A DNA stretch of 64,000 nucleotides from Cymodocea nodosa (Eukaryota > Streptophyta > Magnoliopsida > Alismatales > Cymodoceaceae). The notes under the pieces are model-generated. The model was not told the DNA's origin and did not search any database. It was given only the letters and a program-made list of their open reading frames with translations. The stretch covers positions 9,550,501 through 9,614,500 of the forward strand of contig CM072347.1 in NCBI GenBank assembly GCA_036874045.1, in the 5' to 3' direction. This document shows, piece after piece, positions 2,680 to 39,590 of this stretch. Position numbers and translations under genes: made by a program. The number at the start of each line of letters is the position of its first letter. The stretch's first letter is position 1.

Positions 2680-4414
2680 TGTTGATCAAGCTTCGCTGTA
2701 GAACTTAGTGGAAGTAAAGATTACGAAACTAGGGTTTTACCAAGGTAGAAACACGAAAGGTTGTTAGTAAAACATTTATAACTCTTTGAGTTTATAAACG
2801 GATTCAATCATTGAAATCATAAATATAAGATCCGTTACTGATAAATAACTCGAGTGCTTACAATAACTGTATGAGTTTTACAACTAACAAAAGCAGAATA
2901 CTTAGCGTAACTATTCGTGTAAAGAAAATAACTTCTGGCTAAGTGAAAAAGTGAGAAAACTCGAAGACTTATGATAACTATTCGAGTTTTGTGAGCAGTA
3001 AAGCACATAACTATACGACAAACATGAATAGTTATCGTTAGAGTTTAAGTCTTTCAAAAAATATAATATTATTAAGTTAACTATTCGAGTTTCTCGAATG
3101 GATAGGTGTGAAAGTCGAAGAGTTAAACATAACTGTTCGAGTTTCAACTAAGACATTATAAAGCAATGAAATTCAACACATGCATAATTCTAACTTAAGG
3201 TGTTCAGATATTTTCGGATACTTATAAACCTAACTATCCGATGCTTAGATGCATTTCAGAGAGTTACTAGATAACTTACCGAACATTCACTTAAGATATG
3301 CATTTAGGCTTTGACACGTGTATTTCAGGAAATAATAAAATATTTTATTGATCATTTAAAACATAACTATCCAATATATATACAATATAGTCTTCCCAAA
3401 TCACAGAAAATTTGGATACTTAAGAATTAAAAAGCTTGTATTTTACCGATAGTTCAGAAATGTACTGAATTAATGTTAATTTCCTGAAATTATGCAGATT
3501 CTTTCATGAAAACATATAATAGTTCATAAGTGTTAAATTATTATATGAGAAATTGCTCCCCCTACATAAATGTAGTCTAAAGAATCTATGGTGTACTTAA
3601 ACTGCGTTGCCAAGCCCTAAGTAGATTTGGCTTTAAAAGGTCAAATAGCTTATTTAGAAAGGATGCTAAGCCTTAAATAGATTTGAGTCTCTCTATTTTT
3701 TTTATTTTTTTTAAAATATAAATTAAATACAGAAATAAGTAGTAGATTTAACAATTTAGACTTTCTGGCTTTTATCTTATTCAGTTTACAAAAGATAATT
3801 CATAAAGATATTACCTTCAGGAACTTAAAAGAATTCAATAATGAGTACACGAACTTAAGATAATAAATATTGTACATTATGTGTAAAGAGTAGATAATAC
3901 CAAAAAAATAACAAAGATTATATGCACAGATTATGACAGGATTGTTATAACACCTTGAAAAATAAATTAAGCTTGAGTACATTGCCCCCTTTTCCCTTTT
4001 TTTTTATATTCATATATATATTTTATGTATTACCTCCCACAATATCATCTTTTTACGTGATCAGAATCCCTTGCTTAGGGGAAAGATAACCAGTTACTCA
4101 ATGACAAGTGAGAACGGGTAAATTTTTTTTTAATTTTTTTTTTTTAAATTGTAATTTGAATTACTTGCAAAATGAGTTTTCAGTCAACACATCCCAAACC
4201 AGTTCGTTTAAGTGACTAGGGTTTAAGATCCCCAACGGACTTAATTACTTAAGTAATTGCAGACAAACAAAAATAAAACAAGATAGTAAATTAAATTAGA
4301 GGCAACTGCAAGACTTAATTTTTTTAACAGAATGTTAATAACTTTCCTTTAATAAAAAGTACATACTTTCTATGTATTTTCTTGTTAAAATCTCTGTAAT
4401 AGCATATACATAAG
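2680..4414 (-). other. Noncoding spacer between pol and extra ORF of Copia B1
   Basis: No gene seen. On the minus strand it contains a long AT-rich part (3,600-4,414), a purine tract near 3,556, a stretch related to the Gypsy LTR U3 (3,165-3,545), and then, between 2,690 and 3,160, about six variants of a dyad of the form AACTCGAAnAGTTA directly upstream of the extra ORF. The dyad cluster resembles the one in the B LTR and could be a promoter region, which is inference. Confidence 0.6.
3165..3562 (-). repeat. Gypsy-LTR-U3-like segment with purine tract, inside Copia B1
   Basis: The reverse strand from 3,545 to about 3,165 aligns by eye with the U3 of the Gypsy LTR at 21,349 (about 21,470-21,800). 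Shared blocks include AATCTGCATAATTTCAGGAA, TATTTTATTATTTCCTG, GCATCGGATAGTTAGGTTT and GAATTATGCATGTGTT. A GGGGGAG purine tract lies just upstream at 3,556-3,562, as a PPT would. I estimate 80-85% identity. Confidence 0.7.
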
Positions 4415-6597
4415 TGTAAAGTATCAATTTGTGCATTTTATATATGTTAATTTATGCATATTAAGGATTATAAGTCATCATTATATATGTTCTTATGAAA
4501 GATTACATGAAAATCATATTTTAGAACTATGCATGTTTTATTGGTTAAATAGTCAATAATGCACAAATTTATCCTTTATTAAATTAATGCCTAGTCAATT
4601 AGCCCATTGTAGATATAAGTAATTTATATATTGATTTCATGCATATCTTCAAAGAATTATCATTAAGATATGAAATCAAATAATCCTCAATTGAGCAAGC
4701 AATATATTATGCACATTTCATTTTTTGCTTTATAATTGAGTAGCAATTTATGTGTAATGTGCATATGCATTTAATGTTATCTTTTGAGTTGTCGTAGGTG
4801 AGGACGTAGACCCTTGGATTAAATAATGGGAAATCAACAACTCATGGTCGTCCAATTCAAACTCCAAATCAATCCACCAATCAATCAATCAATGATTAAA
4901 GCTTGCCTAAATTAGAGGCCACAAATTGGAAGGTGTTTGAATTCTTTCCATAGATGGATGACAATGGAAAGTAAAAGAGGATGGTTGGCCAAAGGAAAGA
5001 TCATCTCCTCTTTCTCCTCCATGCAAGGGCAAGAACTCCAACTCCAATTTTCGTCCATCCTCTTCCACCCAAGATTTTGGAAGAGTTTTCCTCCAAGATT
5101 GGTGAGCTTAGGCACCTTCCCCCTCATACTAGAAGACCTCCTTCTCTCCACTCTAAGCAGACATACGGAAGGACCTCTATGGGTGAAATCAATGGTATTG
5201 GAGGCACGTGTGCAGCATTGGAAGAGCTTGGGACGTGATCTTCAAGATGAGGTAATAGGAAGCATCAAAATTGAGAGGAAAGTCAACAAATCTGTATATC
5301 TTGGAAGTGGATTGAGGACGTGCAACCCATTTTCTCCAAAGCAAACATAGGCGGTTCCCCTTTGGACGTGATTTGCAAGTGGTGACAGCCTTGTAGAGGA
5401 GCAGACAAAGTGGTTCATCATCAAATAGGGATCAAATGCTTGAAGAGAAGTGGATGAATTAAAGGTAAAAGAGAAGGGAGAGATCCTCATACTTGAATAT
5501 CGAATTTTCATATCATATGTGTATGAGTATTTAGGTTTTTAATTCATTTGTTATGTGCACATGTAGTATGTTATTTAAATGATGATTTTGTTTATGAATA
5601 TTAGTTGTCTTACAATATATTTCGTAGAAAATGGTTACTTCATGTGAATGTGTGAATGTTGTGCATAAAACTAACTCTTAACTCTTGTGAATGCGTGTAT
5701 ACCCTGTTTGCTGTAAATTCCAGTGCATGTTCCATTTTGTGGTATGTTGTACGATTTGATTTCTCAGAGTTATATGTCGTGTTATAGCTTTTTTGTAAGT
5801 AATTGAAGTGTACAATACGTATGTAGAGTTTTTGGAATTTTTTAGAATGCATTTCTTCGGTTTTTCGATTATCCTTTTGAAGGTAGCATCTGCTCTGTTT
5901 TACTGGTCGAGTGACAGAAATTATGCTCGACGCCTTCGTGTTGCCTTGCTTTTGTACGTTCCGAAATATTTTCCTGTAAATTTTCCTGGTTATAGAAACG
6001 AGTTATCTTTCAAGGCACGGTGATTTCGTGGTGTTTCATGAAGAGTTGGTTAAGTTATGATTTTTACACCAACGACGCGTTTTTGGAAAGTTTTCAGAAT
6101 CATTTTGCGCACTGTTTTTATATCCGACTTTGGCAGTAATCTAGAGTGAATTAGTCCTGGAAATCACTCTCATTTTAAAGATAACTTGATGAAATTTCCA
6201 ACCAATATTTTCTCTGGATTTTTCAATGTCCAGCTTGGAAGGAAGAAGAGTTAGAATTCGGACAAATTTCTGTGATTCCAGAAATGTGAACTTAAGATTT
6301 TCTTGAGTTTTCTACCTATTAGCTTTAGGAATTAACAAGTTTTATGTTACCTTTGAAATCTTTATTGTATTTTTGTAAATTGTAACTTAATTGCATGTAA
6401 TTAGAGTTTTAATTGTGGATTTAATAGAATGGATGTTTTATCAAACAATCATTTTAATAAAATTATTTAAGACAAACTTCTTGTGGATTCGACCCGTACT
6501 TGCACATGCTTATTACAATGGGCACCATGTGCTTGCGGTTATAAATGTAAAATTTGTGCTTTTGCCGTTAATTTAACAATACATAAAAGCGTTTACT
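4415..6597 (+). repeat. Probable solo Gypsy (Athila/Tat-like) LTR of another family
   Basis: About 2.2 kb with no gene. It begins TGTAAAGTATCAATTTGTGC. Near its end it has the text GACCCGTACTTGCACA followed by GTGCTTGCGGTT, the same arrangement as at the ends of the other Gypsy LTRs here (GACCTGTACTTGCACA near 34,966 and 44,338). It interrupts the Copia B1 spacer, and no Gypsy internal sequence adjoins it. The edges are uncertain: ATAAG flanks 4,415-6,597, but the right end is then not CA; an alternative pair of ATACA flanks would give 4,411-6,578. A longer open frame inside it (about 4,937-5,350) has no recognisable product. Confidence 0.55.
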
Positions 6598-10343: not shown

Positions 10344-13300
10344 TGTAGGATCGTCTGTATCACAAGAGGGGGGGTGAATTGTGTCTTTAATAATTAAATA
10401 CTAGCGGATAAAACAAGAGCACAAAACACTTGTAAATGAAATTCTATTCTTTTATTTAAAGACAGAATTTACAATATCTTTTTAGCTCAATTCCCTTCTT
10501 GAAGGTTTTGATACAGTAATGTTCGATATACAATTCAAATAGAAAAACAAAGCTCTTATTCAAAACTAATTTTGAATTGTATAAAACCTGATCTTTATGC
10601 ACACAACTTCTTTCTTTCTCTTTGCTCATGTTGAGTATTTTGTTTTGATGATGTGTGCTAAATGGAAATAATCATATTTGCTCAATTACTATTGCTTGTG
10701 AAAAGAAATTAAAATCATCAATGAATATAGAAAAAGTTTATTGATATAAATACTTGTCTATATTGGATTTGAAATTATATTGTTAAATAACTAGTCGTTT
10801 CATTGCATTAATTTCTCATGTAACTAAACGTTACGTTAACGTGTGTTTTTTTTTTGAAAAGCATGATATATTTTAAAGTTATATCTTCTATATCATGTAC
10901 AATGCATGTTTAGATAACTCGTTAAGTTAGAGTTTTGTTTGTATAGAGGTCACGTGAGAACTCGTTAAGTTAGAGGCTTAAAGGTTAAAATAGGTCACGT
11001 GAGAACTCGTTAAGTTAGTGAGTAAAAGAAGAGATGAACTCGTTAAGTTAGTGTTATACATGTAGTGAAATTATAAGTTACGAATGTTGTATTGTATCAC
11101 GTGAGGTGCACATGTTTAACTCGTTAAGTTAGCATAACTAAACGCGTTGAGTTGCTATATTGAATACTAAGGCAACGCGTTAGGTTAGTGTTATAAACTT
11201 AAGTTGTTATTTTTGCACGTGGTAAAATTCTTATTATAAAAACATTTGTTTATTACTGAATCAGTGAGTTAAAGTTTTTTTTTCGGAGACTTACAGTCGT
11301 AACTATCCGAAAGGTAACTTAAGTCATGTTTTCAGGTCTTGACATGTGTCTCACTAGTTTTATGGTAAAAAGAGTTTTTCGGAGACTTACAACCGTAACT
11401 ATCCGAAACTTAAACTGTTTTCGGTGAGTTATCGTTTAACCTTCCAAAAGAAAGGATAAGTTATTTCAGTGAGTTAGCTATAGTACTTGTCACGTGAAAT
11501 GGCACATGAGGAACTCGTTAAGTTGGAAACGTTAAGTTATATATACTTGTGTTACTCGTTTAGTTAACATTAAAGTAACGACTTCTTATTACACTTGATG
11601 GAAAATTCTTTGGATGAGAAAGTTTATTTTGTAGGAAATTTTTCAGAGATCCAGGACTGATGATTAAAGAAAATTCGAAATGTAAATGTAGGTCAGAACG
11701 TGTGTATTTCGATGAAGGAGAAAGAAAAGACATGGAAAACTGGTAGTGGTTAAACGTGAAGGATATGCATGAAATGAAGATACAATATAAAATGCATAGA
11801 ATTCTCGTTGATCAATTTATCCTTGCACACAAAACGAAAAATCTTTTCAAGGATCAAACCATCCCTGCACACCAAAAGAAAAATCTTTTTCAGGGATCAA
11901 AAACACCTCTTTAGGAAAAATCTCTCAAGTAGAAGAAAGTTCAGTGAAGCATAAAAAGGTAAGATTTTCGTCACTAAAGATTTGAAGTATCAAGTGGAAG
12001 AAAATTCAGTGAAGCGGAAAAGGTTAAATTTATGTCGCTAAAGATTTGAAGTATCAATTGGAAGAAAATTCAGTGAAGCAAAAAAGGTATTATTTATGTC
12101 ACTGAAGATTTAAAGTATTAGAAGAAAGCAAATTCGGTGAAGCAGAGAAAGACAAGATATTCGTCACTGAAGAATTGTTGAAGAAGAAAAAGAAGAAGAA
12201 GAAAAATCTCAAATAGGGAGAAATGTTTTAAATTCTGCAAATTAGTTTTCTCTATTTGTAGTTATGAAATTGTTTAGATGATACATGATATCGAATTATA
12301 ATTGCATCTACAATTTCTGAGGAGAATTGAATTGTATATTGTAATTGAAACCTTGAATAAAAATGATTTTATGAAAACAATGTCTCGACTTGTTTTTGAG
12401 TTTTAAAGTTTCAATTATATTTCAGAAAATATTAAAAATACACAATTCACCCCCCTCTTGTGTAGCCATATGATCCTACAGCTCAGCTTCTATATCTCTT
12501 CTTCTCTAGTTGTCGAATTTCTAGACTTTTTGCGTTTGCAGCTCCTTTTCTGAAATTGCTTGGAATTTCGAACTTCTTTTGATGTTGGAGAATTTTTCAG
12601 AATATGAATATTCAAACTTAACTTTTCAGTTAGGGATCTAGATTGAATATTCAAACTTGGTTTTTGAGATTGGGATCCTCTGTTGTAATGTAGCTTGCAC
12701 TTTCTATTAGTAGTCGAACTCTGTTGTCTTTCACGTTTAGCGTGTTCATCCACTTAATCCACAATCCATAATCCATAATCCACGTACTAATTTTTTCTTT
12801 AATCCAAATTACTATCTTTTTGATTTTCCACTTTCTCCACTATCATTTTGAATTTTCACGATCTCCACTCGTAGATTCATCGAGACTTTTATCTTCCTGG
12901 AGTCTTGTAGAATATCTTTTAAGTCTTCGATTTAGTCGAACACTTATCCTTTAAGTCCTATAAAAACTCAAACACTTATCTGTAACTCTTCGAGTTTTTG
13001 CACCTGCAAAACACGTGACTAAACATAGCAAATTTATCTGTTTGTTAGTTATTGTATAAAACTCGACTAGTTATCTATCCATGCGTATAAAAACTCAAAC
13101 AGTTATCTAACTATTTGATTTTCATTACCGAACACACATGAAAAACACGTGACAACTTAAAACATTAAAAACACACGTGCAGATAACTTAACTATACGAG
13201 TTTTTAACCTAAACTATTTGACAAAAATGAAACGTTAACTATCTGAAAGTTTAACTATCAAAAATCTAACTCTTCAGAAATCTTTAACTTATCCAACATA

Positions 13301-13709: not shown

Positions 13710-14848
13710 ATGGAATTGATGAAATTACCACTAGATGCATTGAGGGAAGTACTGAGTAACCTATCAGCTAAAGATCTATGTAGATAGTGTTGTGTATCAA
13801 AGGAAATCAAAGACTGTGTTAAAGAAAAATATTTCATGGACTAGAAACTGCAAAAATGACTAAGATTAGAGATGGATTTTTATGGAAGTCATTTAATCGT
13901 AGTTCAATCTGCTATGAATATTTGAATATGGAAGAAATTGTTGGAATTCCACCCAATACTTTAGAAGGAATAGATCATATTATGGGGATGGATGAAGGAT
14001 TAATTATATACAGAACCAAACCAAGGTATGCAATTCTATTACCCAACATTTTGATTAGAAATCTTATCAGAAGAGAAGAATGGAATATAGGAAGGCCTAA
14101 TAGATTTGAAGTACCAACGGAAAATTGTGGGTCAGCTTTAATATTTTCTAATAAAAATTCGACCATTCCTGAAAAATTGTATTATTGGAGACCAACGAGA
14201 AATTGGGATGAAGATTTATGCTTAAGTGTGTATAATTTTCTAAATAGATCTTGGATTGAAAATACTATGATATATCTAGGACAGAAAGCATTAATTAACA
14301 GCATGCATGTCATACTTGATGGATATATATATCTAATCACAGATATATCAGTTGCATTTAGATTTCATTTATACATAGTAAGCATAGATAGTTATGATGA
14401 TGATTTTATAGAAATATTACCTATACCGAGTGATATAGCTAAACCACCGTCTTCAGAATATGATAAAATTCAATTAGGAATGTGGTATAATGAATATCAT
14501 GATCCTACTTTATGTCTAATAAGATGGTAGGATGAATTGAGGAAATTTCAAATATGGATTATGAAAGACCTAAATGAATGGAAGTGGGAAGAAGAATATA
14601 TTGAAATAGATGTAGAAATTGAAACAGCTACATTATCTTGGAATAGAAGAGGATCCTCTTCTACATTTCATTTCATTAATGGTAATACACTTATATTTAG
14701 TATTGATAACATACTGCAAATTTACAAGCTAAAAAGGAAAATAGACTGCATTAAAATAGAATTAATAGCAAGAAGAATTATGCCTAAAAGGTTTGCATGG
14801 ACTAACACATTTATTCCATTTGTTACTACTTTTCAATCATGTTCTTAA
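13710..14848 (+). pseudogene. Captured F-box protein gene, copy 1 (in AthF1), broken
   Basis: A decayed copy of the gene at 39,779-40,914, aligned from the start codon to the stop. The N terminus shows the F-box signature of Leu-Pro-Leu-Asp, a Leu-Ser-Asn-Leu-Ser segment, AKDLC and CVSKEIKD. The rest resembles the beta-rich F-box-associated region typical of plant F-box proteins, with Trp/Tyr-rich strands (LYYWRPTRNWDEDL, MWYNEYHDPTLCLIRW). F-box proteins recruit substrates to SCF E3 ubiquitin ligases. No intron is apparent. An AG acceptor-like site lies at 13,697-13,698, 11 bases before the ATG. It has a few breaks and is unlikely to be functional. What it shares with copy 2 extends far beyond the coding region on both sides. 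Confidence 0.8.
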
Positions 14849-15574
14849 ATTATAATTCTATGTTTTTAATGTTGTGTGTATTTTGCATTTATTTTTAGAA
14901 AAAAAGAAAAAGAAAAGAAAAAATTTTAGTTTTAGTTTTATTTTATAAGAAAAAAGAAAAAAAAAATAAAATATCAATCTAGTTTGTTGGTATCTGTTAT
15001 GGGAAACCAACTGGCTTGCTTGTGAGCCACCAAAGGCATAGGAGTCTGGGTTCCACACAAGACATTGATTTAACAATTTATGTTTTGTTACTTTATTATA
15101 TATTCTACTTTTATTTGTGAATTAAAAGTTTTTCAGAATCAAAAGTCGAAAGATATTGAAGGAGATACAAAAGGGCAAGGTATGTAATTGATTACTTATC
15201 CTGAATTTATATTTAAACTCAGTTCGTGGAGTTATTCATTAACTCAACGAATTAAGTTCGTTGAGTTAGGTGCTAAGTCAGCGAAATAATATTCATGCCT
15301 ACTACAATTACTGTATTTATCGTAAAATCTTTTACATTGAGGACAATGCAAAATATAGGTATGAGGGGAGGTAATTAGAGTAACAACCATGTAAATTTGT
15401 TAATTAGAAGAATTAGAATGGTACTGCAAAAGTTCTATGGAAATTGAAAATTTTTTTTTTTATGAATTTGTTGTAACTATCCGATAATTGAAATTGTAAA
15501 ATTTTTAAGAATTGCAACTACTTGAATGTTATATAAGATGCTATAGAATTTTACTATTCATACAAATCTAGATA
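14849..15574 (+). other. AthF1 noncoding region after the F-box gene
   Basis: No gene. A potential stem region at about 14,978-15,064 (CCAGTTTGTTGG, then AACCAACTGG, then CCACCAAAGGCATAGGAG) is almost unchanged in AthF2 at 41,037-41,120. The motif CATTGAGGACAATG at 15,335-15,348, followed by a G-rich tract at 15,364-15,371, is well known from the 3' part of Athila/Tat elements. An imperfect copy of the 27-nt palindrome is near 15,245-15,271. Confidence 0.7.
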
Positions 15575-16470
15575 TAGTATCTTATGTGTTTGCTGAATTT
15601 TATGAGTTTAACAATTTCACGACTTTAAAAAGAAATCAGAATGCTTAACTGAAACTCAATAAATTATCTGAAATCCTAGAAGAACTTAAATGTTGATTTT
15701 TGGATTAAATGAAATACATATGATCAATCATACATTTAATTTGATTGATTAAACTTGTAGGATGATTTATGTGTAGATCTTATTAAACTATAGAAAAAGT
15801 ATGAGCTTATTGATATGAATTTATATTTTTAGTAAATAATAGAAGTAGGACTATATGAGATTTGTGTTTTATTGCATCTATATTAATGAAATATGTATAT
15901 ATATTATGTTGAAAAGAAAAAAAAAAGGAAAAAAGAGAAAAACTTTGAGAGTTTATTGACTTGTTTGATCACGAGCCTTTTGTACTTGAGCAGATAGGTA
16001 TGTAAGGATTGTTGACCTGAAAAGGACTCTTTAAATCTGCCAACCTAAGATCCTGATCAGATCTAGGTTGTTGACCGAAAGTTTGATACATGGGTACACT
16101 AGAAAGCTATTGTATGATTTAAGCTTTTCAAATTAACTTTTACAGTACAAATATGCATATACTGTTCTGAAAAGATAAAAGTGTTTTGTGAAATACAGAT
16201 ATCTTTTGAATCGAGTATATTTTCTGTTATCTAAGATTGCTGAAGTATGAATCTAGAATAAACTTTTGAAGTTGTTTATCTGAGATACAATTCTTTATTC
16301 TACTTGTTTTAATCATATTGAATTGGATTATGTTTTGATTCGTATGTAGTTGAAATTTATTTTGGAAATCATATTGGAAAATTCAGGATGACAGATGCTG
16401 AAAAGAAGAAAAAAAAATGATAATATAATTAACACCTATATGATGCTAATATATTTTGTATGTAATTTAC
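15575..16470 (+). other. Shared Copia/Gypsy noncoding module, copy 1
   Basis: About 0.9 kb without coding potential, aligned by eye with 41,575-42,510 (AthF2), 54,765-55,640 (Copia A1) and the reverse strand of 59,370-60,265 (Copia A2). The best conserved core is 15,942-16,145, with blocks GATCACGAGCCTT, TACTTGAGCAGATAGGTATG and GAAAGCT. Function unknown. Confidence 0.85.
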
Positions 16471-16664
16471 ATATGTTTTAAATATATTTGCAGGTTGAAG
16501 AGGAGAAAACAATGTTAAAACATATTACTAAAAAATACAGAATATCTATATAGTAATCTAAATTTATGTATTCTGAAGAAGAACAAAATGAAGAATTAAA
16601 TCTAGCACTTTAGAAAGACCAACTAGTTAGATCTTAGTTTGCTAAGGGACTAGCAAAATTTAAG

Positions 16665-16675
16665 TATGGGGGAAG
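16665..16675 (+). other. Polypurine tract of AthF1
   Basis: TATGGGGGAAG immediately before the LTR start TGTTTAGAATG; identical in AthF2 at 42,666-42,676. It primes plus-strand DNA synthesis in the family. Confidence 0.85.
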
Positions 16676-18719
16676 TGTTTAGAATGAAAAAGTGCATAAT
16701 ATTAAGGGTTAATTGATGGTTAATTGCATAATATTTAGCTTATCATATAAGAATTAAGCCATTATGTTATAATTGCACTATTATATGCTTTAATGAAAGA
16801 ATCTACATAATTTTAGGGAATTAATGTTAATTTAGTACATTTTTGAACTGTTGGTAAATTGCAGGCTGTGAAATTCTTAAGTATCTGAATTTTCTATTAT
16901 TTTGGAGAGTTATATTACATGTACCAGACAATTATGTTTTTAACGATAGAAGAATATTTTATTATTTCCTAGAGTACACGTGTTGAAACCTTAATGCATG
17001 ACTTAAGTGGATTTTCGATAAGTTATTTGTTAACTATCCAAAATGCATCTAGGCATTAGATAGTTAGGTTTGTAAGTGTCTGAAATATCTGAACTTGTTA
17101 AGTTAGAATTATGCACGTGTTGAATTTAAATGTTTTAGTATATCACGTGAGATGCACATGTTTAACTTGTTAAGTTAGCATAATTGTACGTGTTGAGTTA
17201 CATGAATACACACTAAGGTAACGCGTTATGTTAGCAGCTTATTTCTTTATTGCACGTGTTTTATAGTTAAATCAACGAAGTAAGTCCATTGAGTTATCTG
17301 TAACTCCACAGACCATTTATTTTCTAATATGCCACTATAGTGGTTATAGAAACAAGACATTTGAAGGAAAACCATGATTGCACATATCACATAGGAATTC
17401 ACTCGTGGAAGGAAGAAGAAATCACCATCGTTGATATAAATGAAGGAAATCCAACCGATCATCTAAGCAGAAGTAGTTACTATTGAAGAAATATAAAAGA
17501 AGAGGAGAAAAAATAAAGAAAGTGTGGTTGGTAGTATGTGCAGAGGTGGAGGACCGCACTAACTCCAAACAGCGTCGGAAGTTCACTAAAGCTCCACACC
17601 ATCACCAAAATCACCAACACCACCATAATCACCAACCATCGGAGGTCTGTGAGGATACTTTCCTAATGTCGGGTCGATTCTGAGCCAAACATGCTGCTTG
17701 ACGACCACTATGAGGAGTGATCGCGTTGCAAGAAGGGAAGCCATTTTCACCAAGCAACGACTCATATCTCAGGAGATCGTAAAACTTCTAGCCTTGGTTT
17801 CGGATTGATGCTAGTATGCTGAAAAGGAGATTATCTTGCAATTCTAGACTCGCGATTCTATAGGGAGAGGAGGTAGGATTGTAAGTGATTAAGTTTTCAG
17901 TGGTGTAATCGTGTCGCATGTAGTGACAAAAGTTTTTACTATCGATAGAGATTTTTACATTTCACCTTTCATTCATCTTCATGAACATATCAAAACAAAA
18001 ATACCAAAAGCAACAACTTATTTGTGTTTATATTTAGTATTTAAGTGTTGTATTGTTTGTTTTGTATCGTGAGTAATGTTATCATTGTCAGTATTGTGAA
18101 TGTTTTATGTTTATTTGATTCAAAAAATAGAAAATAGTTTTACAATTTACTGAAATTGATTTGTTCCAAATACTTAAAGATTTTAATGGTTACTATTTGA
18201 AATATCTGAATGTTAGTGTTGCTTAATGATAAATCTAATATTAACTAGCATTAAATAGCTTAATTAATGTTATTTACAATCTATGGAACCGCCCAATGGT
18301 TGACCGAATTCCTTTGTAAATAGTAGTATTTAACTGGAAAGATAGGCTCATGGAGTTAACTTAAGTCCATGAGGTTAGTCCATTGATTTAGCCATAACTC
18401 CACGAACTTGGTCCGTTATCCTAACTGTAACTCAACGGAGTGCTTATTGAACACATAAACTCCAATATAAAAATCAGAACAGTACACAATTCTTACTCAA
18501 TCTATGTGAGATTGACCTGTACTTGTACACATACAATATACACTGTGCACTTGTAGTTAAAATACAAATTGGAATTAATATCTAATTTGTGTGAAATGTT
18601 ATTTGTTTACTTCTAAAACTAATTATTGATATAAGCATCAAGACAAATTAAACAAGTTTAAAAATAGAAGTTAACAACCCCAAACCAAATTTCTAATCTA
18701 ACCTTTCACACCAATACAC
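16676..18719 (+). repeat. 3' LTR of AthF1 (right edge lost)
   Basis: Begins TGTTTAGAATG after the PPT and aligns over almost its full length with the LTR at 21,349-23,372. TATA box TATAAAA at 17,492-17,498, in the same context as in the other Gypsy LTRs here. The R/U5 part has a CCACCA-rich stretch near 17,600. The U3 (17,140-17,266) contains the segment also present in Copia A LTRs. Its right end is not canonical; it meets a Copia A LTR fragment near 18,720. A short open frame at 17,483-17,683 is not a gene. Confidence 0.8.
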
Positions 18720-21348: not shown

Positions 21349-23372
21349 TGTTTAGAATGAAAAAGTGCATAATATTAATAGTTAAATAATGGTTAATTGT
21401 AGAATATTTAGCTTATCATATGAGAATTAAGCCATTATGTTATAATTGCACTGTTATATGCTTTAATGAAGGAATCTGCATAATTTCAGGAAATTAACAT
21501 TAATTTAGTACATTTCTGAATTGTTAGATAATTACAAGCTGTGAAATTCTTAAGTATCCGAATTTTTTGGTATTTCAGAGAGTTATATTACATGTACTAG
21601 ACAATTATGTTTTAAACAATTGATGAATATTTTATTATTTCCTGGAGTACATATGTTGAAACCATAATGCATAACTTAAGTGAATTTTCAGTAAGTTATC
21701 TGGTAACTATCTGAAATGCATGTGAGCATCGGATAGTTAGGTTTGTAAGTATCCGAAATATCTGAACTCGTTAAGTTAGAATTATGCATGTGTTAAATTT
21801 AAATGCTTTAGTATATCATGTGAGCTGCACATGTATAACTTGTTAAGTTAGCATAACTATATGCATTGAGTTACTTGAATATACACTAAGGTAACACGTT
21901 GTGTTAGTAGCTTATAAGCTATTTCTTTATTGCACGTGTTTTATAGTTAAATCAACGAAGTAAGTCCATTGATTTATTTTCTAATATGCCATTGTAGTAG
22001 TTGCAGAAACAAGATAGTTGAAGGAAAACTACGATTACACGTATCACGTAGGAATTCACTCGTGGAAGGAAGAAGCAATCACCATCGTTGATATGAATGA
22101 AGGAAATCCAACCGATCATTTAAGCAAAAGCAGTTACCATTGAAAGAAATATAAAAGAATAGGAGAAAGACGAAAAAGGTGTGTGTGCGCAAAGGTGGAG
22201 GACCACGCTAACTGTAGGAAGCATCGAAAATTCCCTGAAGCTCCACACCACCACCACCAACATCACCAACCATCGAAGGTCTGTGAGGATACTTTCCTAA
22301 TGTCGGGTCGATTCTGATCCAAACACGGTGACTGACAACCACTATGAGTAGTGATCGCGTCATAGGAAGGGAAGCCATTTTCACCAAGCACCGACTCATA
22401 TCTCAGGAGATCGTAAAGCTTCTAGCCTTGGTTTCAGGTTGATGCTAGTATGCTAAAGAGGAGATCATCTTATAATTCTGGATTCGTGATTTTATAGGGA
22501 GAGGAGGCAGGATTGTAAGTGATTAACTTTTTAGTGGTGTAATCGCGTCACATGTAGTGACAGAAGTTTTTACTATCGATAGAGATTTTTACATTTCACC
22601 TTTCATTCATCTTCAAGAACATATCAAAACAAAAATACCAAAAACAACAAATTATTTGTGTTTACATTTAGTATTAAAGTGTTGTATTGTTTGTTTTGTA
22701 TTATGATTAATGTTATTATTGTTAGTATTGTGAATATTTTATGTTTGTTTGATTTAGAAAATAGAAAATAGTTTTACAGTTTACCAAAATTGATTCATTC
22801 TAGATACTTAAAGAGTTTAATGGTTAATGTTTGAAATATCTGAATGTTAGTGTTGCTTAATGATAAATCTAATATTAACTAACATTAAAGAGCTTAATTG
22901 ATGTTATTTACAATCTGTGGAACCGCCCAATGATTGTCCGAATTCCTCTATAAATAGCAGTATTTAATTGGAAAGATAGGCTCGTGGAGTTAACTTGAGT
23001 CCACGAGATCAGTCCGTTTAGTTAACCATAACTCAACAAACTAAATCCGTTGTGTTAACTATAACTCAACGGAGTACTTAACTGAACACATATAAACCCC
23101 AATGTAAAAATCAGAACAGTACACAATTCTTCTCAATCTCTATGGGATCAACCTGTACTTGCACATAAATACAATATACACTATGCACTTGCAGTTAAAT
23201 GCACAAATTGGAATTAATATCTAATTTGTGTGAAAGGTTGTTTGTTTACTTCTAAAAAAAAGGGTAATTATTGATATAAGCATAAAAATAGAAGTTGACA
23301 AATACAAGTTTTCTAGCACTGTTATCAAAAAACTAATAAAAGTTCTCTGGTGCTGCCTAAAAACACCAAACA
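21349..23372 (+). repeat. 5' LTR of Ath2
   Basis: 2,024 bp, TGTTTAGAATG at the start and CCAAACA at the end, with a TATA box at 22,150-22,156. It carries the G-box-rich U3 segment, and the dyads TAACTCAACAAACTAAATCCG and its inverse near 23,030 in variant form. The end is confirmed by the primer site 8 bases further on. Confidence 0.85.
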
Positions 23373-27740: not shown

Positions 27741-27965
27741 TTAGAAAGTTAAGTTTTATAAATGTAAGGAAGGATATATTACTAAGTATATATTAATCAA
27801 AATGATAGTTTCAAACATACATAGGATTTATGGATTAAGCATAAACTATTTAATATCATAAACTGTGAAAAATAATCACATAACATTAAAATCAGTAAAT
27901 AGTTTACATAATAGTTTTGGTTACAAATTACAAAAAATAAATCCTGTAATACATAATTTGTATAA

Positions 27966-30566
27966 TCACAAGCCTCTTTGTCTTCGAAAAATATCAATTA
28001 GAGTATCTGAAATTTTCTTTGCAATATCTGTACTAACTTTGTTTATCTGATCAAGTACTGCTTGATCTAAATCATTTTGAGAAACTTGTGATGGTTGCTG
28101 TAAAAATTCAGTATGTATCTCTATATCTATACCTGTATGTATTTCTCTATGTATACCTTGTTGTATATCTGTATGTATATCTTGTTGTATATCTGTATAT
28201 TGCTGTATTTCTATAAATTGTGTAGATTGTTGTTGTGTTTGCCGATCCTGTTGTTGTTGTTTGAGGACAGGTGTATTTGCTTCCTAGTATTTTTGGAGTT
28301 CCTTTGCAGAGAAAGATCTTGACTTTAATCTTTTCTATGGCCAAGGTGTAATATTTGTTTGACTTGCCACAATTCTCAAAATTGTATCACCATAAAATAA
28401 TTTACTCTACAAATGTAAGATATGAGAAACAAAAATATCATACTAGTTCACCTATATATGGTTTATTAATGCGTATGTAGCATAAAGACAACATCTGCCA
28501 ACTTCTGCCCCATGACCAAACCTCTAAAACAATGTAGCATGCAATATTTTTGCAATAAAACGTGCTTGGCCATTTAAGTCATTTAGTAATGTTAATGGTT
28601 TATTGGCAGTTGGATCTTTGGCTAAACTTGTAATGTCCCATCCCAATCGATAAACCTGTTTTCTTTCTGATAATTTTAACTCCTTCATTTTTCAAACCAA
28701 GTACTTGATGAAGTAAATCTAGAGTTAAATATATGTCATTGTCTTGTATATTAGAAACAGGAATACCTTCTTCCACTATTAAGTTTGAGTAAAAACAACT
28801 AAGAAGTTCGGGTATAGCAAGATGGCCTGGCTGTTGTGGAAGTAGAGTCAACAAGCCTTGAAATTCAAATAGTTCACGTATGTGTGCCATCCCTTCAAAC
28901 TTAACTGGTCTTGAATATATAACTGTAAAAGTTTTATATGTCTGAAATTTGTCATAACAGGAATTATTTCTGAACCATAATAGTGTATGTTCATCTAAAC
29001 TCTATTCAGGATTAGGTATTTTCCTGTCATGATGTTCTGAGCTGGGACTTGTTTCAATATTATCAGTAGCATCTATATTTTAGATCTTTCAGAACTGGTG
29101 GAATTTCTATCAAAACTAGTATAAATGCCTGAAATATCTGTTATTGTCGTATCAATAATCTACTAAATTTCTTCTGTTTGTTCTTCTGGAAACATTTCAG
29201 TAGTAACAATCTCTGTAACAATCTGTATATCAGCAACATGTATATCTATATTTGATCTATACAACTGTCTCTGTATGAAAGAATATTCTATATCTGTCTG
29301 TGGAATAGAATCATCTTGTATTTCTGAAATTTGTATATGTGAGACATTGGTAGTATCATATTCTATTTGTAACTATGTATGTTGTTGTTTATATACATTG
29401 ATCAACAAGTATACTATATACTGTAACAAACATAACCATACATATAAAGTGTAGTATAAGCAATTGTACCAAAATTCAAAAGTCTCTATTCGAGATACAG
29501 TAAGAGGAAGAATATCTGTACATTCCTCTTCAGATGAAATATCTTCAAAATTCATAGACTCAATGTCTATGTCATCAATAATATCATCAAATTTGATATC
29601 ATCTGTATATGTATCATCAAAATTTCCTACATGCTCTCTTTCCGTAGGAAAAGAATGTGTGCTTGTAGCATTGTGTGAAAAAATGTCCATTGTATTAAAA
29701 GATACATTATGCACTAATGTGACACAATACCTTAGAGTATATGCTTGTAAGCCAATATTTGTCACATCTGCTGGGATTCCTAACAAAAATGTCTGTCCAG
29801 CTTCTGCAATGGAGCATAGTTTTCCATTTTTCACTAATTCTTCTTTTTGATGCAATATTCATTGTTCACCTGTAGTTAGTCCAAAATATTCAATTATCTT
29901 TTTCTTTTTCCGACTATATGTCTATAGTGTTTCAGGTTGTTCAGGAGGTTCTAAAATTGTCTTAATTTCTCTTGTTAAAGGCACCTGTTGTCTTGATGGT
30001 CCTTCACCATGATGCCTAGGTGGTAATAATGGAATATAGAGTTTTAAGCTCTCCACCTCTACCATTTTGAGTTGATAAACTCTTTGTCCTTCACTTCGAA
30101 GGCCCATTTTGCTAATGGCAGTTTTCTGTTCATCTATATACTATTTAATATCATCTAAAACAACTAAGGGAAAATAATGTTGGGAATACAAGGATTGTAA
30201 TTCCTTGTTTGCATTTTCGATCATCGGTCCCCACTTCTTTCCATAATAGGTGATAGACTGTACCGATGTCTTTGGTACATGTCCAGAACTTACAACCGCA
30301 GGGTTAGGTAGTAAATTTCTTTTCCATAAATGCAATGCGGAAAGTTCAGTTTGTTTTAGTCGAAACTGTGTTTCTGCATAATTTTGAATAAATTTCCAAC
30401 AGAAATTTTTCTCATCTTGAACAACTTTTCTTATTTCGTGTAGTACTTCATTTGAAAAAGTGTACCTAGAGTAAATGTCGTTGATTTCACTTTGAATTTT
30501 CTGAATTTCCAGCTCTCTTTTCTGCACTTTGGTCATTCTACCACGTCCTCTTCCACATCCTGACAT
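27966..30566 (-). pseudogene. Extra ORF of Copia B2 with putative plant transposon protein domain
   Basis: Best-kept copy of the B-family extra ORF, about 2.6 kb, with several breaks. Parts in order: Gly/Arg-rich start (MSGCGRGRGRMTK), charged helical region (QKIQSEINDIYSRYTFSNEV), Pro-rich and His-rich link (PPRHHGEGPSR), acidic stretch (about 29,550-29,600), the plant transposon protein domain (HIRELFEFQGLLTLLPQQPG, LLSCFYSNLIVEEG, LLHQVLGLKNEGV), and a Gln-rich tail ending KISDTLIDIFRRQRGL. The C-terminal helix is conserved with Copia A (AISDILRRGR), so it may matter to the protein. Known only as a domain linked to plant retroelements; molecular role unknown. Confidence 0.8.
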
Positions 30567-30656
30567 TGTCGATTAATCTTTGCTTTGAACTATAGAACTT
30601 AGTGGAAGTAAAGATTGTGAAGCTAGGGTTTTACCAAGGTAGAAACATGAAAGGTT

Positions 30657-33295: not shown

Positions 33296-35147
33296 TGTTT
33301 AAAATGAAAAAGTGCATATTATTAACGGTTAAATGATGGTTAATTGCATAATATTTAGCTTATCATTTGAGAATTAAGCCATTATGTTATAATTGCACTG
33401 TTATATGCTTTAATTGAAGAATCTGCTTAATTTTGGGGAATTAATGTTAATTTAGTACATTTATGAACTGTCGGTAAATTGCAGGCTGTGAAATTCTTAA
33501 GTATCCGAAAATGCATCTGAACATCAGATAGTTATTCCTGTAACTCTTCGAAATGTTATTTTATGTTTAAACTGCTGCTAACACGTGTTGAGAGCTGGTA
33601 GATTTACTTACGTTATAACTCGTTAAGTTAGTATAACTGCACGCGTTGAGTTACATGAAAATGCACTAAGGCAACGCGTTAGGTTAGCGTTATAAACTTA
33701 AGTTGTTATTTTTGCACGTGTTTTATAGTTAAATCAACGAAGGAAGTCCATTGAGTTATCTGTAACTCCACGGACTATATATTTTCTAATATACCACTAT
33801 AGCGGTTGCAGGAACAAACAGTTGGAAGGAAAAACCACGTTTGCACGTATCACGCAGGAATTCAATCGTGCAGGGAGAAAGAAATCATCGTCGTTGATCT
33901 GAAGGAAGGAAATCCAACCAACCATTCAAGTAGAAGCAGTTACTACTAAAGAAATATAAAAGAAAAGAAGAAAAAAAGAAGAAGGGTGTGTGATCAATGG
34001 ACGATCAGTGTATACAGAGGAGGAGCACCGAGCTTTCTGTAGACAATATTGGCGATTCTCCGAAGTATCACACCAACCATCGTTATCACCACCATAATCA
34101 CCAATCAACGGAGGTCTGTGAGGATACTTGCCTGATGTCGGGTCGATTCTGAGCCAAACATAGTGCCTGACAACCACTGTGAGGAGTGATCGCGTCGCGG
34201 GAAGGAAAGACATTTTCACCAAGTGCTGACTCATAATTTAGGAGATCGTAAAGCTTTTAGCCTTGGCTTCGGGTTGATGCCTGTATGCTGAAGAGAAGAT
34301 CATCTTGCAATTCTGGACTCACGATTCTATAGGGAGAGTAGATAGAATTGTAAGTGGTTAAATTTTCAGTGGTGTAATCACGTTGCAAGTAGTGTCGGAA
34401 GTATTTACTGTCAAATAAGATTACTTTACATTTCACCTTTCGCCCATCACATCAAAACAAAAATACCAAAAACAATTTATCTTTGTTTGTATGTTGTATT
34501 TGAGTGTTGTATTGTTTGTGTTGTATCGTGATTAATGTTATCTGTATCAGTTTTATGATTGTTTTATGTTAGTTTTAATTTTACAGTTTACTGTAATTGG
34601 TTCGTACAAAAAACTTAAAGATTTTAATGGTTACTGTTTGAATCATCTGAATGTTAGTATTGCTTAATGATAAATCCAATGTTAACTAGCATTAAAAAGC
34701 TTAATTGATGTTATTTACAATCTGTGGAATCGCCCAATGGTTGGCCGAATTCCTTTGTAAATAGCAGTATTATAAAGAAGAGATAGGCTCGTGGAGTTAA
34801 TTTAAGTCCACGAGGATAGTCCGTTGAGTTAGCCATAACTCAACAAACTTAGTTCGTTAAGTTAACTATAACTCAATGGAGTGCTTATTGAATATAAATT
34901 TGAATTGTTCAGAATCAAACATTTCTTAAATTCGTCAGCAATTCCCTATGGGATCGACCTGTACTTGCACATTGATACAATAGACATTGTGCACTTGTAG
35001 TTAAAGTACAAATTGGAATTAATATCTAAATTGTATTAAAGGTTGTTTGTTTACTTCTAAAAGAAAGAATAGGCATAAAGATAAATTAACTAAGTAAAAA
35101 TAGAAGTAACAAATCCAAGTTTTTCTAGTGCTGGGAAAACCCAAACA
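33296..35147 (+). repeat. 5' LTR of AthF2
   Basis: 1,852 bp, from TGTTTAAAATG to CCCAAACA. TATA box at 33,955-33,961, and the U3 block shared with Copia A LTRs at about 33,615-33,722. The U5-side dyads around 34,795-34,880 are variants of the 27-nt palindrome. The open frame on the minus strand at 33,926-34,234 is not a gene. Confidence 0.92.
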
Positions 35148-35154
35148 AGTTTTA

Positions 35155-35172
35155 TGGCGCCGTTGCCGGGGA
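35155..35172 (+). other. Primer binding site of AthF2 (tRNA-Asp)
   Basis: TGGCGCCGTTGCCGGGGA, 7 bases after the LTR end; this is the standard Athila/Tat primer site, complementary to the 3' end of tRNA-Asp. Confidence 0.95.
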
Positions 35173-35281
35173 ATTGAATTGAGTCAAAGTAAATTGAATT
35201 GAATTGAATTAATATAAGTAATTGATAGAGCTATTTCATTTTAATAGTCAGAGTTGTGTGTTTTCTTCTATAATTGAGAAT

Positions 35282-36650
35282 ATGGCATATGCTTATGCTC
35301 AAAGATTTCTGAAACCTTTAATTAGCATATGTGAATTCTGCAATTCTGAAGGACACGACATTTCTGATTGTTTGAAATTGAGACATTTACAGATTGTTAG
35401 ATCCCATGAACAACAAATGAATTATCCTCAATATAATAGAGCCGAGTATGAGAATCCTATAGTTTACCCAACTGATGGTCAGTATAGAATGTGCAATATG
35501 ATGAGAGACACAGAAGTTTGGGATAGCTATGACAGACTGGAGCATAGTATAGAGCAAAATCTGGACAAACTGGAATACTTTGTGTGTCAACAACAAGAAG
35601 TCAACCGGTTAAACTATAAGGAGGCATATTCAGAACCTAAACAGGATATAATTTACGAAACTGAAAAAGCCATAAAAAAAATTGATAAAAAATTGAATGC
35701 AATGAAATTAGATGATCTGGAAACAAAATTAAAAGCATTAGACAAAAATGCAATGAAAATACAAGTTTTGCAACAGGACAATGAAAATTATAATGTTATA
35801 AACCTGCACAACTTGCAAAATATACAACAAACTATTCCTACAAAAACTAATGATAACAAAGTGCTAATACAATTTATAAGAATAAATATATTTGCCAGAT
35901 TTGGAATACCTAAAGCTATTATCAGTGATAGAGGAACTCATTTTTGTAATTGAAGTTTTGAAGCCTTAATGAAGAAATATGGAGTAAACCACAAAATTGC
36001 AATATCATATCATCCGCAAACAAGTGGACAAGTAGAAAGTGCAAACAAACAAATTAAATTAATCTTGGAAAAAGTAGTAAATCCTACTAGAACAGATTGG
36101 GCTAATAGATTGATAGATGCACTTTGGGCTTATAGAACTGCTTATAAAACGAGCTTAGGTTTTCACCTTTTAGGCTAGTATATGGAAAAAGTTGTCATTT
36201 ATCTACTGAAATAGAACATAAAGCTTATTGGGCATTAAAAACTCTGAACACTAATTTAAATCAAGCTGCTAAAAATAGGAAAATGCAACTAATTGAATTA
36301 GAAGAATTTAGAAATGAAGCTTATTCGAAGACTGTAAGAGAAAAAGAGAAAATTAAATTCTGGCATGATAGAAAAATTATTCCTAAAAGCTTTGAAATAG
36401 GACAAGAAGTATATCTTTATCTGGCTAGACTCTATAACCATCCAGGAAATTAAGATCTAGATGGGTAAGACCTTACATAGTTCGAAATGTTTATCGTTAT
36501 GGAGCTATTGAAATTGAAAATCCTAAAAATCAGAATATATTTAAAGTAAATGGACAAAGACTTAAACCTATTCTGAAAACACCAAAAAGCTCATTTGGAA
36601 TTATAGAAGAAGTTAGAGTAGAGGACTACTCGAGCTTTACTTAGTAAGAA
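35282..36650 (+). pseudogene. AthF2 5' ORF (zinc knuckle) and integrase C-terminal part
   Basis: It starts 110 bases after the primer site with MAYAYAQRFLKP, and has a knuckle CEFCNSEGHDISDC near residue 20 and a charged coiled-coil-like region to about 35,830. After that, integrase core motifs appear ([49 protein letters not shown]), then the C-terminal part with DVxL-like and GPY/F-like text (EIGQEVYLYLARL, NIFKVNGQRLKPIL) ending near 36,650. This copy alone could not have supplied enzymes. Broken in a few places. Confidence 0.82.
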
Positions 36651-38403
36651 ATCAATTTTTATGTTTATATATATATGTTTATCTTAAAAATAAATAAAAA
36701 AACAAAAAAACAAAAAAAATATATATATATATAAAACATAAAAATAGTTGTGGTTCAACCGATTCGATCCATCGGTATGACCGAAAAATTAAAAAAATAT
36801 TTAGGTCTAACCAAAGCGTAGCATCGGTATGACTGGAACATTAAAAAAATATTGGTTTTACCGAAACATAGTATCGGTTTGACCGAAAGAAAAATAAAAA
36901 AATAAAAAATATTTAGGTCTGACCGAAGTATAGTATCTGTTAAATCATAAAAAAAATTGTATATTAATTTTCAGAAAAAATATTGGTTTTACCAAAACAT
37001 AGTATCGGTTCAACCAAAAGAAAAATAAAAAAATAAAAAATATTTAGGTCTGACCGAAGCATAGTATCGGTTAAACCTGTAAAAAAATAGAAAAACTATT
37101 CTCTGTAATATTTTTATTATTATAATTGCTTGTACGAGGAGTCCGTTGAGTTACGCTTAACTCAACGAGCTCACTTCGTTGAGTCTTGAGTTGGTCAACG
37201 ATCTTATTCCATTGTGTTAACTGTAACTCAACAGAGTACTGTAGCTAAGATCTAAAATTAGAAAAACTCCAGAAGGAAGTAGATGAATTTTGGCATAAAG
37301 ATTAAATTGTATTGTTCGTCTACTTGTGTAGAATTGTATGAAATTGTATGATGTACTTGTAATGTAATTGATTCATATTAATGAATATAATTTTTCAGAT
37401 GCAATTTTCATATGTATTTGGATGTGAAATGAATGGAATTTATTGAATATTATGTAATTTGTGGAACTTTATGAATATGTAATAGATTTACAATTTGTTG
37501 AATGATAGGATAACTGCTTAAAAATTTCTGCATTTTATAAGGTAAAATGTAAATTCTACATAACATAAAATGACCTACAAGTTAAATCTTTATATAATGT
37601 TCAGATTTAAATATATTTTAATCAAAATGATGCATTAATGACATAGATTTAACTTTATTACAATTAGCAGAATGACAAAAAAAAAAAAAACAGAATAGAA
37701 ACTTACGAGAGTGAAACTTAGAAGTTGTCAAGTGTTAACTCAACAAAGTAAGTCCATTGAGTTAACTGTAACTCCACGAGGTCAGTAATATAATATAAGG
37801 TCACTCCGTTGAGTTATCTGTAACTCAACGAAGTTAGTCCGTGGAGTTAGCAACAGTAACCGACTATGTTCTGTTGAGTAATCTGTAACTCAACGAGGTT
37901 AGTTCGTGGATTAAGCAGAATGGTTATTCTTTTAACCATAAACGAAACTTCGTCGGTTTAGCGGTTACCAAAATTTGAAATTAGTAGTAGTACACATACC
38001 CATAAAAATAGGAACCACGATGCACGTTGCAAGACACGTTCTTACAACGAGAGTTATTCACTTTATGGATGCGCAGTATATATATGAAACAGAATGTTAT
38101 TTACGAGTTACCAGCACTTTTAAGAGAAAGGAGAAAGCGTTGGAAGAACTGGAAGGAGAAGCAGCTGATTCAACCTTCATCTGACAACAAATATTTATAG
38201 AATGGAAAGCTTCAGACTGGTATGTAATTAATCTTCTGCTATTTGTTTATGAGCACATGGACTCGTTCTCTAGCACTAAACGATTAGTAAGAACACCTAT
38301 CCAGGAATTTTCATTGTAGAGGAGTACTGAAAAATTTTCTAAACTGAACTTTAACGAAATTCTTTGGGGTGTAGCTAACCTTTCTTTAAAAGAGAACGTA
38401 GAG
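36651..38403 (+). other. AthF2 spacer between integrase and gag, with repeats
   Basis: No gene supported. 36,745-37,080 holds direct repeats built on ATAGTATCGGTT and GACCGAAG with A-rich links, period roughly 140 bases for the larger unit. 37,130-37,260 and 37,735-37,920 hold clusters of the dyad TAACTCAACGA / TCGTTGAGTTA. A short open frame at 37,975-38,184 has no recognisable product; 38,190-38,403 is probably the gag leader. The same spacer start is seen on the minus strand at 46,601-47,030. Confidence 0.65.
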
Positions 38404-39590
38404 ATGGCTGCTTTAGTAGAAAAACCATTAGGAGAGATTCTGTATCCTGAATTAATTGATGAACCTTCATGTATTCGATTGCCAAACTTTGAGGGAGATA
38501 GGTTTGAACTGAAATCTAATTATATTAGTCAATTGCCACATTTTCATGGATTAGAAAGAGAGGATGCCTATTATTTCCTTAGAGAATTTAACGAAGTTTG
38601 TCAAATGATAAGAATGCCGAACATAAGTATAGATGCTATTAAACTTAGATATATCCCTTTTGCTTTAAAAGATATAGCTAAGAGATGGTTATATACTCTG
38701 TCGCCTGATTCAATTTCTACATGGACTGAATTTTGCTCTGTTTTTCTGGAAAAATACTATCCAACACATCAAACAATTAAAAAGAAGAAAGAAATATTAA
38801 TGTGTAGCCAAAAACAGGGTGAATCATTCTAGAAATATTTTGAAAGACTTAAAGATTTACTGACTCAATGTCCACATCATGCAATGAGTAAAGCACAATT
38901 AATAGGCATAATTTATGAAGGCATAGATGTTTCAATGAAATCTTTATTAGAATCTACTTGTCAAAATGGATTTTTAAAATTATGTAGTGAAGAAGCATGG
39001 GCATATTTAGAAAATTTTGCAAAAAGAACTACACAGTGGGAAAATTCGGTTGAAGCTATTGCAGATAAAAAATTATTGCCAAGAGGAATGCATAAAATAG
39101 ATTCCAATACTATGCTTGAGGTGAAATTAAATGAATTAACGAAGAAAATAGAAGAGTTATCATTAAATCAAAAGCTAGTAGAAAAGAATACAAACATAAA
39201 TGACTTAGATATTATTTATGCTAGAAACCAGAGAGATAACTTGGGAAATTTTTATAATCCTAATTGGAGAAATCACCCGAATTTATCTAGGAGAAACAAC
39301 AATTTCCAGGGAGGAGAAAATATAAATGAGAAGAACATAAGTTATGAAGTATTAATTGAACAAGGAGCTAGAATAGAGAAATTAGAAAAGATAATCCAAC
39401 AAGTAAACAATCTATAGAATTTATATTTGGAAATGCTGCAAATCAAAATCAGAATAGAAATATATCACTTAGACAGAAGGAACCAATAGAAGTTAGAGCT
39501 ATTGGAGGATTGCCAATACAAGCTATACCTAATCCTGTCAATAGAACAGTTAATGAAATTGATACCTCTTCTGGGAGGGCAGTTGAATGA
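38404..39590 (+). pseudogene. AthF2 gag: capsid-type protein of Athila/Tat elements
   Basis: Starts MAALVEKPLGEILYPEL. The capsid (retrotransposon gag) domain spans about residues 30-200: FELKSNYISQLPHFHGLERE, AYYFLREFNEVCQMIRM, IKLRYIPFALKDIAKRWLY and FLEKYYPTHQTIKKKKEI, the standard Athila/Tat pattern. The later part has FYNPNWRNHPNLS and the conserved tail IEVRAIGGLPIQAIPNP, then the stop at 39,590. There is no zinc knuckle between capsid and tail, where relatives have one; the knuckle is on the separate ORF at 35,282. Gag builds the virus-like particle. The position downstream of integrase is unusual. Nearly whole, about two breaks. Confidence 0.85.

Follow-up and report, generated by a model that had tools for sequence, protein, structure and literature searches.

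The window, by which we mean the whole 64-kb stretch of DNA analysed, is AT-rich (30% GC) and full of decayed LTR retrotransposons. It contains four copies of a noncoding module of about 1 kb, two of them in Gypsy elements (F1 and F2) and two in Copia elements of Sirevirus type (A1 and A2). A1 and A2 belong to one family and F1 and F2 to another, so these copies represent two families, not four independent events.

Gypsy element F2 occupies positions 33296–44533 on the plus strand, with a 5' LTR at 33296–35147 and a 3' LTR at 42677–44533 that is preceded by a polypurine tract. The LTRs are 95.05% identical, 5-bp target repeats (ACCAG) are found at 33291 and 44534, and a primer site, TGGCGCC, lies at 35155. 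The element interrupts the pol of a Sirevirus-like Copia. Its interior is rearranged and contains a gag domain (PF03732); no reverse transcriptase was identified there, short of a systematic search. Two places elsewhere in the genome with the same module (L009 and L015) match Gypsy reverse transcriptase and integrase. F1 and F2 are putatively of Athila type.

Upstream of the module, F2 has an F-box ORF (39779–40675, plus strand; Pfam F-box E 2e-10). Its counterpart in F1 is broken (13710–14845, plus strand): the F-box end at 13710–13841 is 82% identical to that of F2, and neither of the two later pieces matches a Pfam family. dN/dS between the F1 and F2 sequences is 0.51 over 234 codons. A search for homologues in the protein collection gave 372 word-sharing candidates, none of which reached E 1e-3. 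The Gypsy element may have captured this F-box gene from the host and retained it. The 3' LTR of F1 (16676–18690, plus strand, the end being approximate) follows the polypurine tract TATGGGGGAAG, and the order of the 3' half is thus the same in F1 and F2, namely F-box ORF, module, polypurine tract and LTR, with no long ORF between module and LTR in either.

The two Copia elements are 93% identical over 4671 columns by self-BLAST, and both match the Ty1/copia reverse transcriptase (Pfam RVT_2; E 1e-43 in A1 and 2.2e-20 in A2). The 5' LTR of A1 (47468–49083, plus strand) is followed at 49086 by TGGTATCAGAGC, which we take to be an initiator-Met primer site. The Sirevirus features are seen in parts, as the 5' end of A2 lies outside the window and A1 has no 3' LTR. 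In A2, which lies on the minus strand, the Sirevirus polypurine octamer AGGGGGAG at 56044–56051 is separated by two bases from the start of the LTR at 56041. The octamer occurs more than once in this linker (56044 and 56350), the LTR junction reads AT/TG, and an inverted repeat spans the junction, with CATCATCAAAA before the polypurine tract and TTTTGATGATG in the LTR. A2 pol ends in an open frame (60401–61027, minus strand), and about 60 nt separate it from the point where homology to the module sets in. The module is followed, after about 500 nt, by a broken third frame (56545–58811, minus strand, ATG at 58811), then by the two octamers and the LTR. This frame is called env-like by its position, and the two pieces of it that were tested gave no Pfam match above the cut-off.

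A1 and A2 are inverted copies that abut at 55666/55667, and the 3' LTR of A2 is truncated after 375 bases exactly at the A1 cut, which makes an odd junction. Two env-like regions of another Sirevirus-like family, 88% identical to each other, lie on the minus strand at 16–2762 and 27894–30656. Open frames at about 4915–5540 resemble a chloroplast-derived insertion and may belong to one.

The module copies lie at 15521–16498 in F1, 41522–42540 in F2 and 54720–55664 in A1 (all plus strand), and at 59328–60301 in A2 (minus strand), between pol and the env-like frame. They were located with an nhmmer profile of the four copies, which recovered each of them at E 1e-267 or better (F1, 5.5e-284); the next match in the window has E of only 0.76. 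Self-BLAST matches F1 to A2 at 78% over 830 columns and to A1 at 79% over 682, and the core of F2 to A1 at 89% and to A2 at 92% over 210, with E values from 8e-70 to 7e-135. Profiles built from one family only recover the other at E 1e-111 to 1e-136, the Copia profile matching F1 at 15575–16668 (E 1.8e-136) and the Gypsy profile matching A2 at 60340–59252. Neither self-BLAST nor the four-copy and cross-family profiles found a further stretch of comparable strength in the window. The Gypsy and Copia copies are homologous, far beyond the likeness that AT-rich DNA gives by chance.

The first-pass annotation had proposed such a module in two superfamilies, always in the sense of its element, and both points were borne out at all four copies. 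It had given the length as about 0.9 kb; the locations agree, and the module is slightly longer at each of them. It had also placed the module 3' of the last main ORF. This holds in F1 and F2 but not in A2, where the env-like frame follows; A1 itself is truncated at 55666, directly behind its module.

Two other Copia elements in the window bear on how constant the module is. It is absent from the Copia split by F2 (44.5–45.5 kb), whose pol the Copia-only profile matches up to its end, stopping at 45137; the linker there is about 360 nt long, with four octamers (LTR start placed by eye). In a third Copia (minus strand, 6832), there is no sign of the module in the roughly 240 nt before what, judged by eye, may be another insertion.

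The window's own genome (374.6 Mb) was surveyed with the conserved core of the module. The F1 core gave 2787 first-look candidates and the A2 core 993, which are the totals of a loose first look and not copy counts; the best 40 scored places were at least 94% identical to the F1 query, on many contigs, and 98–100% identical to the A2 query. From the F-type places, 20 of the 39 other than F1 itself were fetched with about 5 kb on each side, all of them among the 40 most F1-like. Every one is Gypsy by its LTR or genes. In 18 of the 20 the LTR starts 727–737 nt after the start of the core; of the other two, L012 lacks the LTR start and L028 has an intervening Copia LTR. An F-box match lies upstream in sense in 15. 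L015 has a reverse transcriptase piece, integrase and the F-box, and L009 has reverse transcriptase and integrase matches at the same core–LTR spacing with no F-box match. A repeated Gypsy family carries the F1-like core as a constant component, independently of the F-box. On the Copia side, module placement rests on the two copies in the window. An extra core at L018 (200–414) is A-type by sequence, and its upstream side lies outside the fetched stretch. Elsewhere in the genome, several A-type cores match that of A2 at 99–100% identity, which suggests that the A2-type Copia family was active fairly recently.

These results leave little room for an independent repeat, SINE-like or derived from a host noncoding RNA, that happened to insert at four sites. 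Nothing favours this reading beyond the repetition itself and some A-box-like matches with two mismatches, which we take, with no control, to be chance in AT-rich DNA. The module has a fixed place in 18 of the 20 fetched Gypsy places, its flanks are homologous too, there is no B box with fewer than three mismatches, and the repeats at the module edges are only 6–8 bp long. We therefore regard it as scarcely credible. Rfam covariance models gave no match in the window at threshold (weak matches on two copies are to other families, below gathering scores), which also makes the earlier suggestion of a hijacked host RNA unlikely as far as known host RNAs go. A SINE or known host RNA origin was rejected on the fixed Gypsy place and the lack of an Rfam match, target repeats or a B box. 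The core had no match in viral contigs, where exact patterns were used, nor in prokaryote genome contigs or plasmids, and of two pattern matches of the Copia reverse transcriptase in viral contigs neither was confirmed.

Within the module there is a core of about 207 nt, at 15942–16147 in F1, 41957–42163 in F2, 55110–55316 in A1 (plus strand) and 59689–59895 in A2 (minus strand). Counted over 207 structure columns, it is 86% identical between F1 and A1, 89% between F1 and A2, 88% between F2 and A1 and 91% between F2 and A2, compared with 92% and 95% within the families (F1–F2 and A1–A2). This agrees with the roughly 205 bases at about 90% that had been read by eye. The flanks are mostly 55–80% identical between families in 50-column windows. 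Fixed differences between the families, that is, columns where F1 equals F2, A1 equals A2 and the families differ, omit most decay after insertion, and they occur in 12 of 208 core columns against 79 of 381 in the left flank and 72 of 332 in the right (p=3e-8 for the core against 151 of 713 in the flanks together). Differences between F1 and F2 are also rarer in the core (15/208 vs 104/713, p=0.005). Those between A1 and A2 are not (8/208 vs 32/713, p=0.85), which is what dead copies should show. It is concluded that the core changes slowly and that the flanks are less alike, as first described. Outside the core, BLAST-level homology of A2 to 17 of the 20 fetched Gypsy places stops at 59335–59339, directly before a polypurine-like run of A2; for L009, L012 and L022 it stops earlier.

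The core has 3 to 7 stops per sense frame in each of its four copies, and a coding function in sense was ruled out for this reason. The longest antisense open stretch is 66 codons, in A1 and A2, and its frame is not kept in F1 and F2.

We consider it almost certain that the module was exchanged between Gypsy and Copia, or captured by both, as had been proposed. In the four-copy alignment, 163 columns separate F1 and F2 from A1 and A2 and only 4 favour another two-two split. In an unrooted tree of 26 modules, a long branch (0.50) unites A1, A2 and the L018 copy at 200 in a single clade, and the Gypsy copies are shallower, with F2 and another L018 copy (9092) as a subgroup. Given the column counts and the single A-type clade, the simplest reading is one old transfer before the spread of both families. 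The tree is unrooted, so the direction of transfer is not readable from it.

The likely basis for the slow change of the core is RNA structure. The ends of the core are the ends of an outer 12-bp helix that closes the predicted fold, whose consensus shape is a long interrupted stem with this closing helix and two inner hairpin arms. MFE folds of F2 and A2, computed separately, have this same architecture (z −4.6 and −2.7, the other strand of A2 giving −1.1); A1 has z −2.0, and the best fold of F1 differs from the consensus, with z of only −1.0. On the sense strand the MFE z at the core averages −2.6, the lowest of nine windows, compared with −1.1 on the antisense strand. A window about 500 nt upstream also folds above chance (mean z −1.7). 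The RNAalifold energy is −46.9, against a mean of −29.0 for shuffled alignments (z −4.4), and none of 300 shuffles was as low; the column shuffles preserve conservation classes, not dinucleotides.

The distribution of changes over the fold is consistent with selection on pairing. In the four copies, 15 of 132 paired columns vary against 23 of 85 unpaired (p=0.0055), and fixed differences between the families inside the structure fall at 3 of 132 paired and 7 of 75 unpaired columns (p=0.04). All three of the paired ones keep the pair, as a compensatory A-U/U-A change and an A-U/G-U change. Covariation in the four cores is not significant (76 of 500 shuffles). The alignment was extended to 26 cores (A6), 4 from the window and 22 from the rest of the genome; F1, which is also L001, was entered once, and a partial core at L018 (2013–2066, 41 bits) was omitted. 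Here, pairing is kept by 12 of 13 pair variants present in at least three copies, against 12 of 32 variants limited to one or two copies (p=8e-4); because the copies are related, a variant that several of them share may go back to a single change or to decay that recurred. With a threshold of two copies the contrast is 16/20 vs 8/25 (p=0.0015), and for transitions only it is 11/12 vs 11/19 at threshold three (p=0.05) and 15/16 vs 7/15 at threshold two (p=0.005). Paired positions are not significantly poorer than unpaired ones in columns with shared variants (15/132 vs 14/75, p=0.15). Columns with private changes only are as common at paired as at unpaired positions (27/132 and 16/75), which is the picture of unconstrained decay. 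The covariation score of the 26 cores was matched by 2 of 500 shuffles and the share of paired cells by 3 of 500, scores that are inflated by kinship of the sequences; pairs changed on both sides are not above chance (189 of 500).

The strongest argument for a fold that mattered during the active life of the elements is this contrast between shared and rare pair variants. The fold of the core is fairly well supported, and the core is probably a selected RNA fold. The RNA role first suggested for it gains from the conservation and folding tests, and the covariation remains weak. A core without function, kept slow through later gene conversion between the families, would account for its fairly sharp boundaries, for the close match of the F2 and A2 cores (91%, near the 92% of F1 and F2), and for the fact that F2 has some Copia core states in comparison with F1 and most Gypsy cores. 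It is nevertheless very improbable: fixed differences between the families persist in the core, other two-two splits are nearly absent over the module, and conversion leaves both the position of the core ends at helix ends and the pair-keeping variants unexplained.

The module is not the only noncoding sequence common to the two superfamilies. A stretch in the U3 region of the Copia LTR (47853–48156, plus strand, and also in the Copia LTR at 11004–11189) has counterparts in Gypsy LTRs at 17072–17311, 21718–21938, 33615–33775 and 42995–43155. Positions 409–560 of the Copia LTR match positions 420–562 of the Gypsy LTR at 76%. The shared stretch is 110–150 bp long, contains CACGTG and AACTCGTTAAGTTAG motifs, lies at a nearly equal offset in the F1-type LTR and, in 11 of the 20 fetched F-type places, also appears in the LTR that follows the core. 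That a structured RNA element usable by either superfamily was traded together with U3, as a cis-regulatory package, is an idea we hold to be on the doubtful side. In an observation apart from this, the motif CGTTRAGTTA was counted 45 times in the window without a shuffled control; LTRs of the two superfamilies contain many of these copies, and two precede the env-like frame of A2.

The common U3 stretch with CACGTG and CGTTRAGTTA, and its presence in those 11 places, would suit a core that acts as DNA or in small-RNA biology, for example as an enhancer, an insulator or a means of escape from silencing, with an incidental fold. On the other hand, the folding signal is on the sense strand, shared variants keep pairs, and the core is in sense orientation in all four window copies and in the LTR-followed Gypsy places. 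Such a role is distinctly unlikely.

The covariance model points to a candidate fifth core, strongly diverged, at 4137–4273 on the minus strand (19.9 bits, E 7.5e-4). It is marginal by other measures: the nhmmer E value is only 0.76, a spurious AT-rich hairpin in the same stretch scores 17.4 bits, and its own fold is unstable (z 0.1). In a sequence-only alignment it keeps 35 of 54 pairs, against 22–28 when slid, and 1 of 5000 shuffles kept as many, while changes on both sides of a pair are not above shuffles (839/5000). An alignment fitted to the model, which leans to structure, gives 35 of 40 pairs (2/5000). The candidate is upstream of another Sirevirus env-like gene (4.3–2.7 kb), and downstream of it are a AGGGGGAG tract (3556) and a piece of Gypsy LTR (3551–3153, within 3153–3563, minus strand) that lacks the first 67 or so bases. 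If real, this core suggests either that Gypsy 3' ends entered Sirevirus linkers or that a Gypsy remnant lies here, and its position beside the LTR piece hints at Gypsy 3' ends as the donor.

Our preferred explanation is that the module is the noncoding 3' domain of one Athila-like Gypsy family and part of the pol–env linker in one Sirevirus family of Copia, and that a single old event brought it from one family into the other. Template switching by reverse transcriptase between the two RNAs would be the simplest route. The core of about 207 nt would then fold and act in cis within the unspliced genomic RNA, serving its nuclear export or its handling in the cytoplasm, and the carriers of the core would mostly be elements with a third ORF after pol. 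We put the probability of this explanation as a whole at roughly 0.4. The template switch, the direction of transfer and the export role are what we infer. An export-type role, taken on its own, is put forward tentatively, by analogy with known systems. F1, F2 and A2 carry a third ORF, and the module-free Copia has only its linker of about 360 nt; this tie is correlative and drawn from few elements, and in L009 the F-box is absent. Moreover, the module comes before the third ORF in A2 and after it in F1 and F2, so that splicing would treat it differently in the two families. Retroelements export unspliced genomic RNA despite nuclear retention, according to the accessible parts of PMC10309623 and PMC4829213. 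The main mRNA export machinery of plants is TREX rather than TAP/NXF1, as given in the accessible part of PMC12786077, and this counts against export.

The main rival to the export reading is a packaging or dimerisation signal, which would give entry into the other family's particles, or bring a non-autonomous RNA into those of its helper. Shared packaging would also account for the exchange, the evidence for the fold counts equally here, and 11 of the 20 fetched F-type places look non-autonomous, with gag and then the F-box and no reverse transcriptase or integrase match between them, yet keep the core. Packaging signals usually lie near the 5' end, however, and the gag proteins of Gypsy and Copia are unrelated. 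We judge this role unlikely. That the core serves the third ORF as a 3'-end, stability or internal translation element is a slimmer prospect: it is near that ORF in F1, F2 and A2, but it precedes it by about 500 nt in A2, L009 has the core and no F-box match, and there is no long ORF between core and LTR in the Gypsy elements, which weakens in particular the idea of an IRES for env.

On the reading of a traded cis-regulatory package, the core could be the first RNA transport or packaging element of a plant retrotransposon. It is kept by two superfamilies and has at least 40 near-identical scored copies of each type, which makes it a testable candidate of about 207 nt. A slow, probably folded core in both suggests that one superfamily took a working RNA signal, for export or packaging, from the other. 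Superfamilies set by protein phylogeny can thus have noncoding parts in common, and a classification based on noncoding similarity would mix Gypsy and Copia here. A keyword search of the literature, with most subscription papers outside its reach, found no earlier noncoding domain shared by the two.

The closest known systems are the CTE of type D retroviruses, the RTE of IAP and the MTE of MusD, each a folded cis-acting RNA of an LTR element, as the core here probably is; the CTE is located downstream of env and upstream of the 3' LTR. According to the accessible part of PMC12786077, RTE and MTE act in export that does not depend on splicing. Unlike these, the present module has no Rfam match at threshold, comes from a plant host and is common to Gypsy and Copia, and its export role is put forward by inference. 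The Sirevirus linker after pol has conserved noncoding motifs (Bousios et al. 2010, PMC2829016), and A2 resembles the Sireviruses described in the accessible part of that paper in its AGGGGGAG octamer, AT/TG attachment site and inverted repeat at the polypurine tract and LTR. The motifs described in that part are short (polypurine tract, inverted repeat and LTR box), and it mentions no module of about 1 kb, folded core or sharing with Gypsy. Template switching in reverse transcription makes mosaics (Sabot and Schulman 2007, PMC1950507); the cases in the accessible part of that report are three-LTR complexes of Copia, and none is a transfer of a noncoding block across superfamilies. In bdelloid rotifers, one module is found in unrelated classes of retroelement (Rodriguez et al. 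2017, PMC5408684). The shared modules in the accessible part of that study are protein-coding, whereas the module described here is noncoding.
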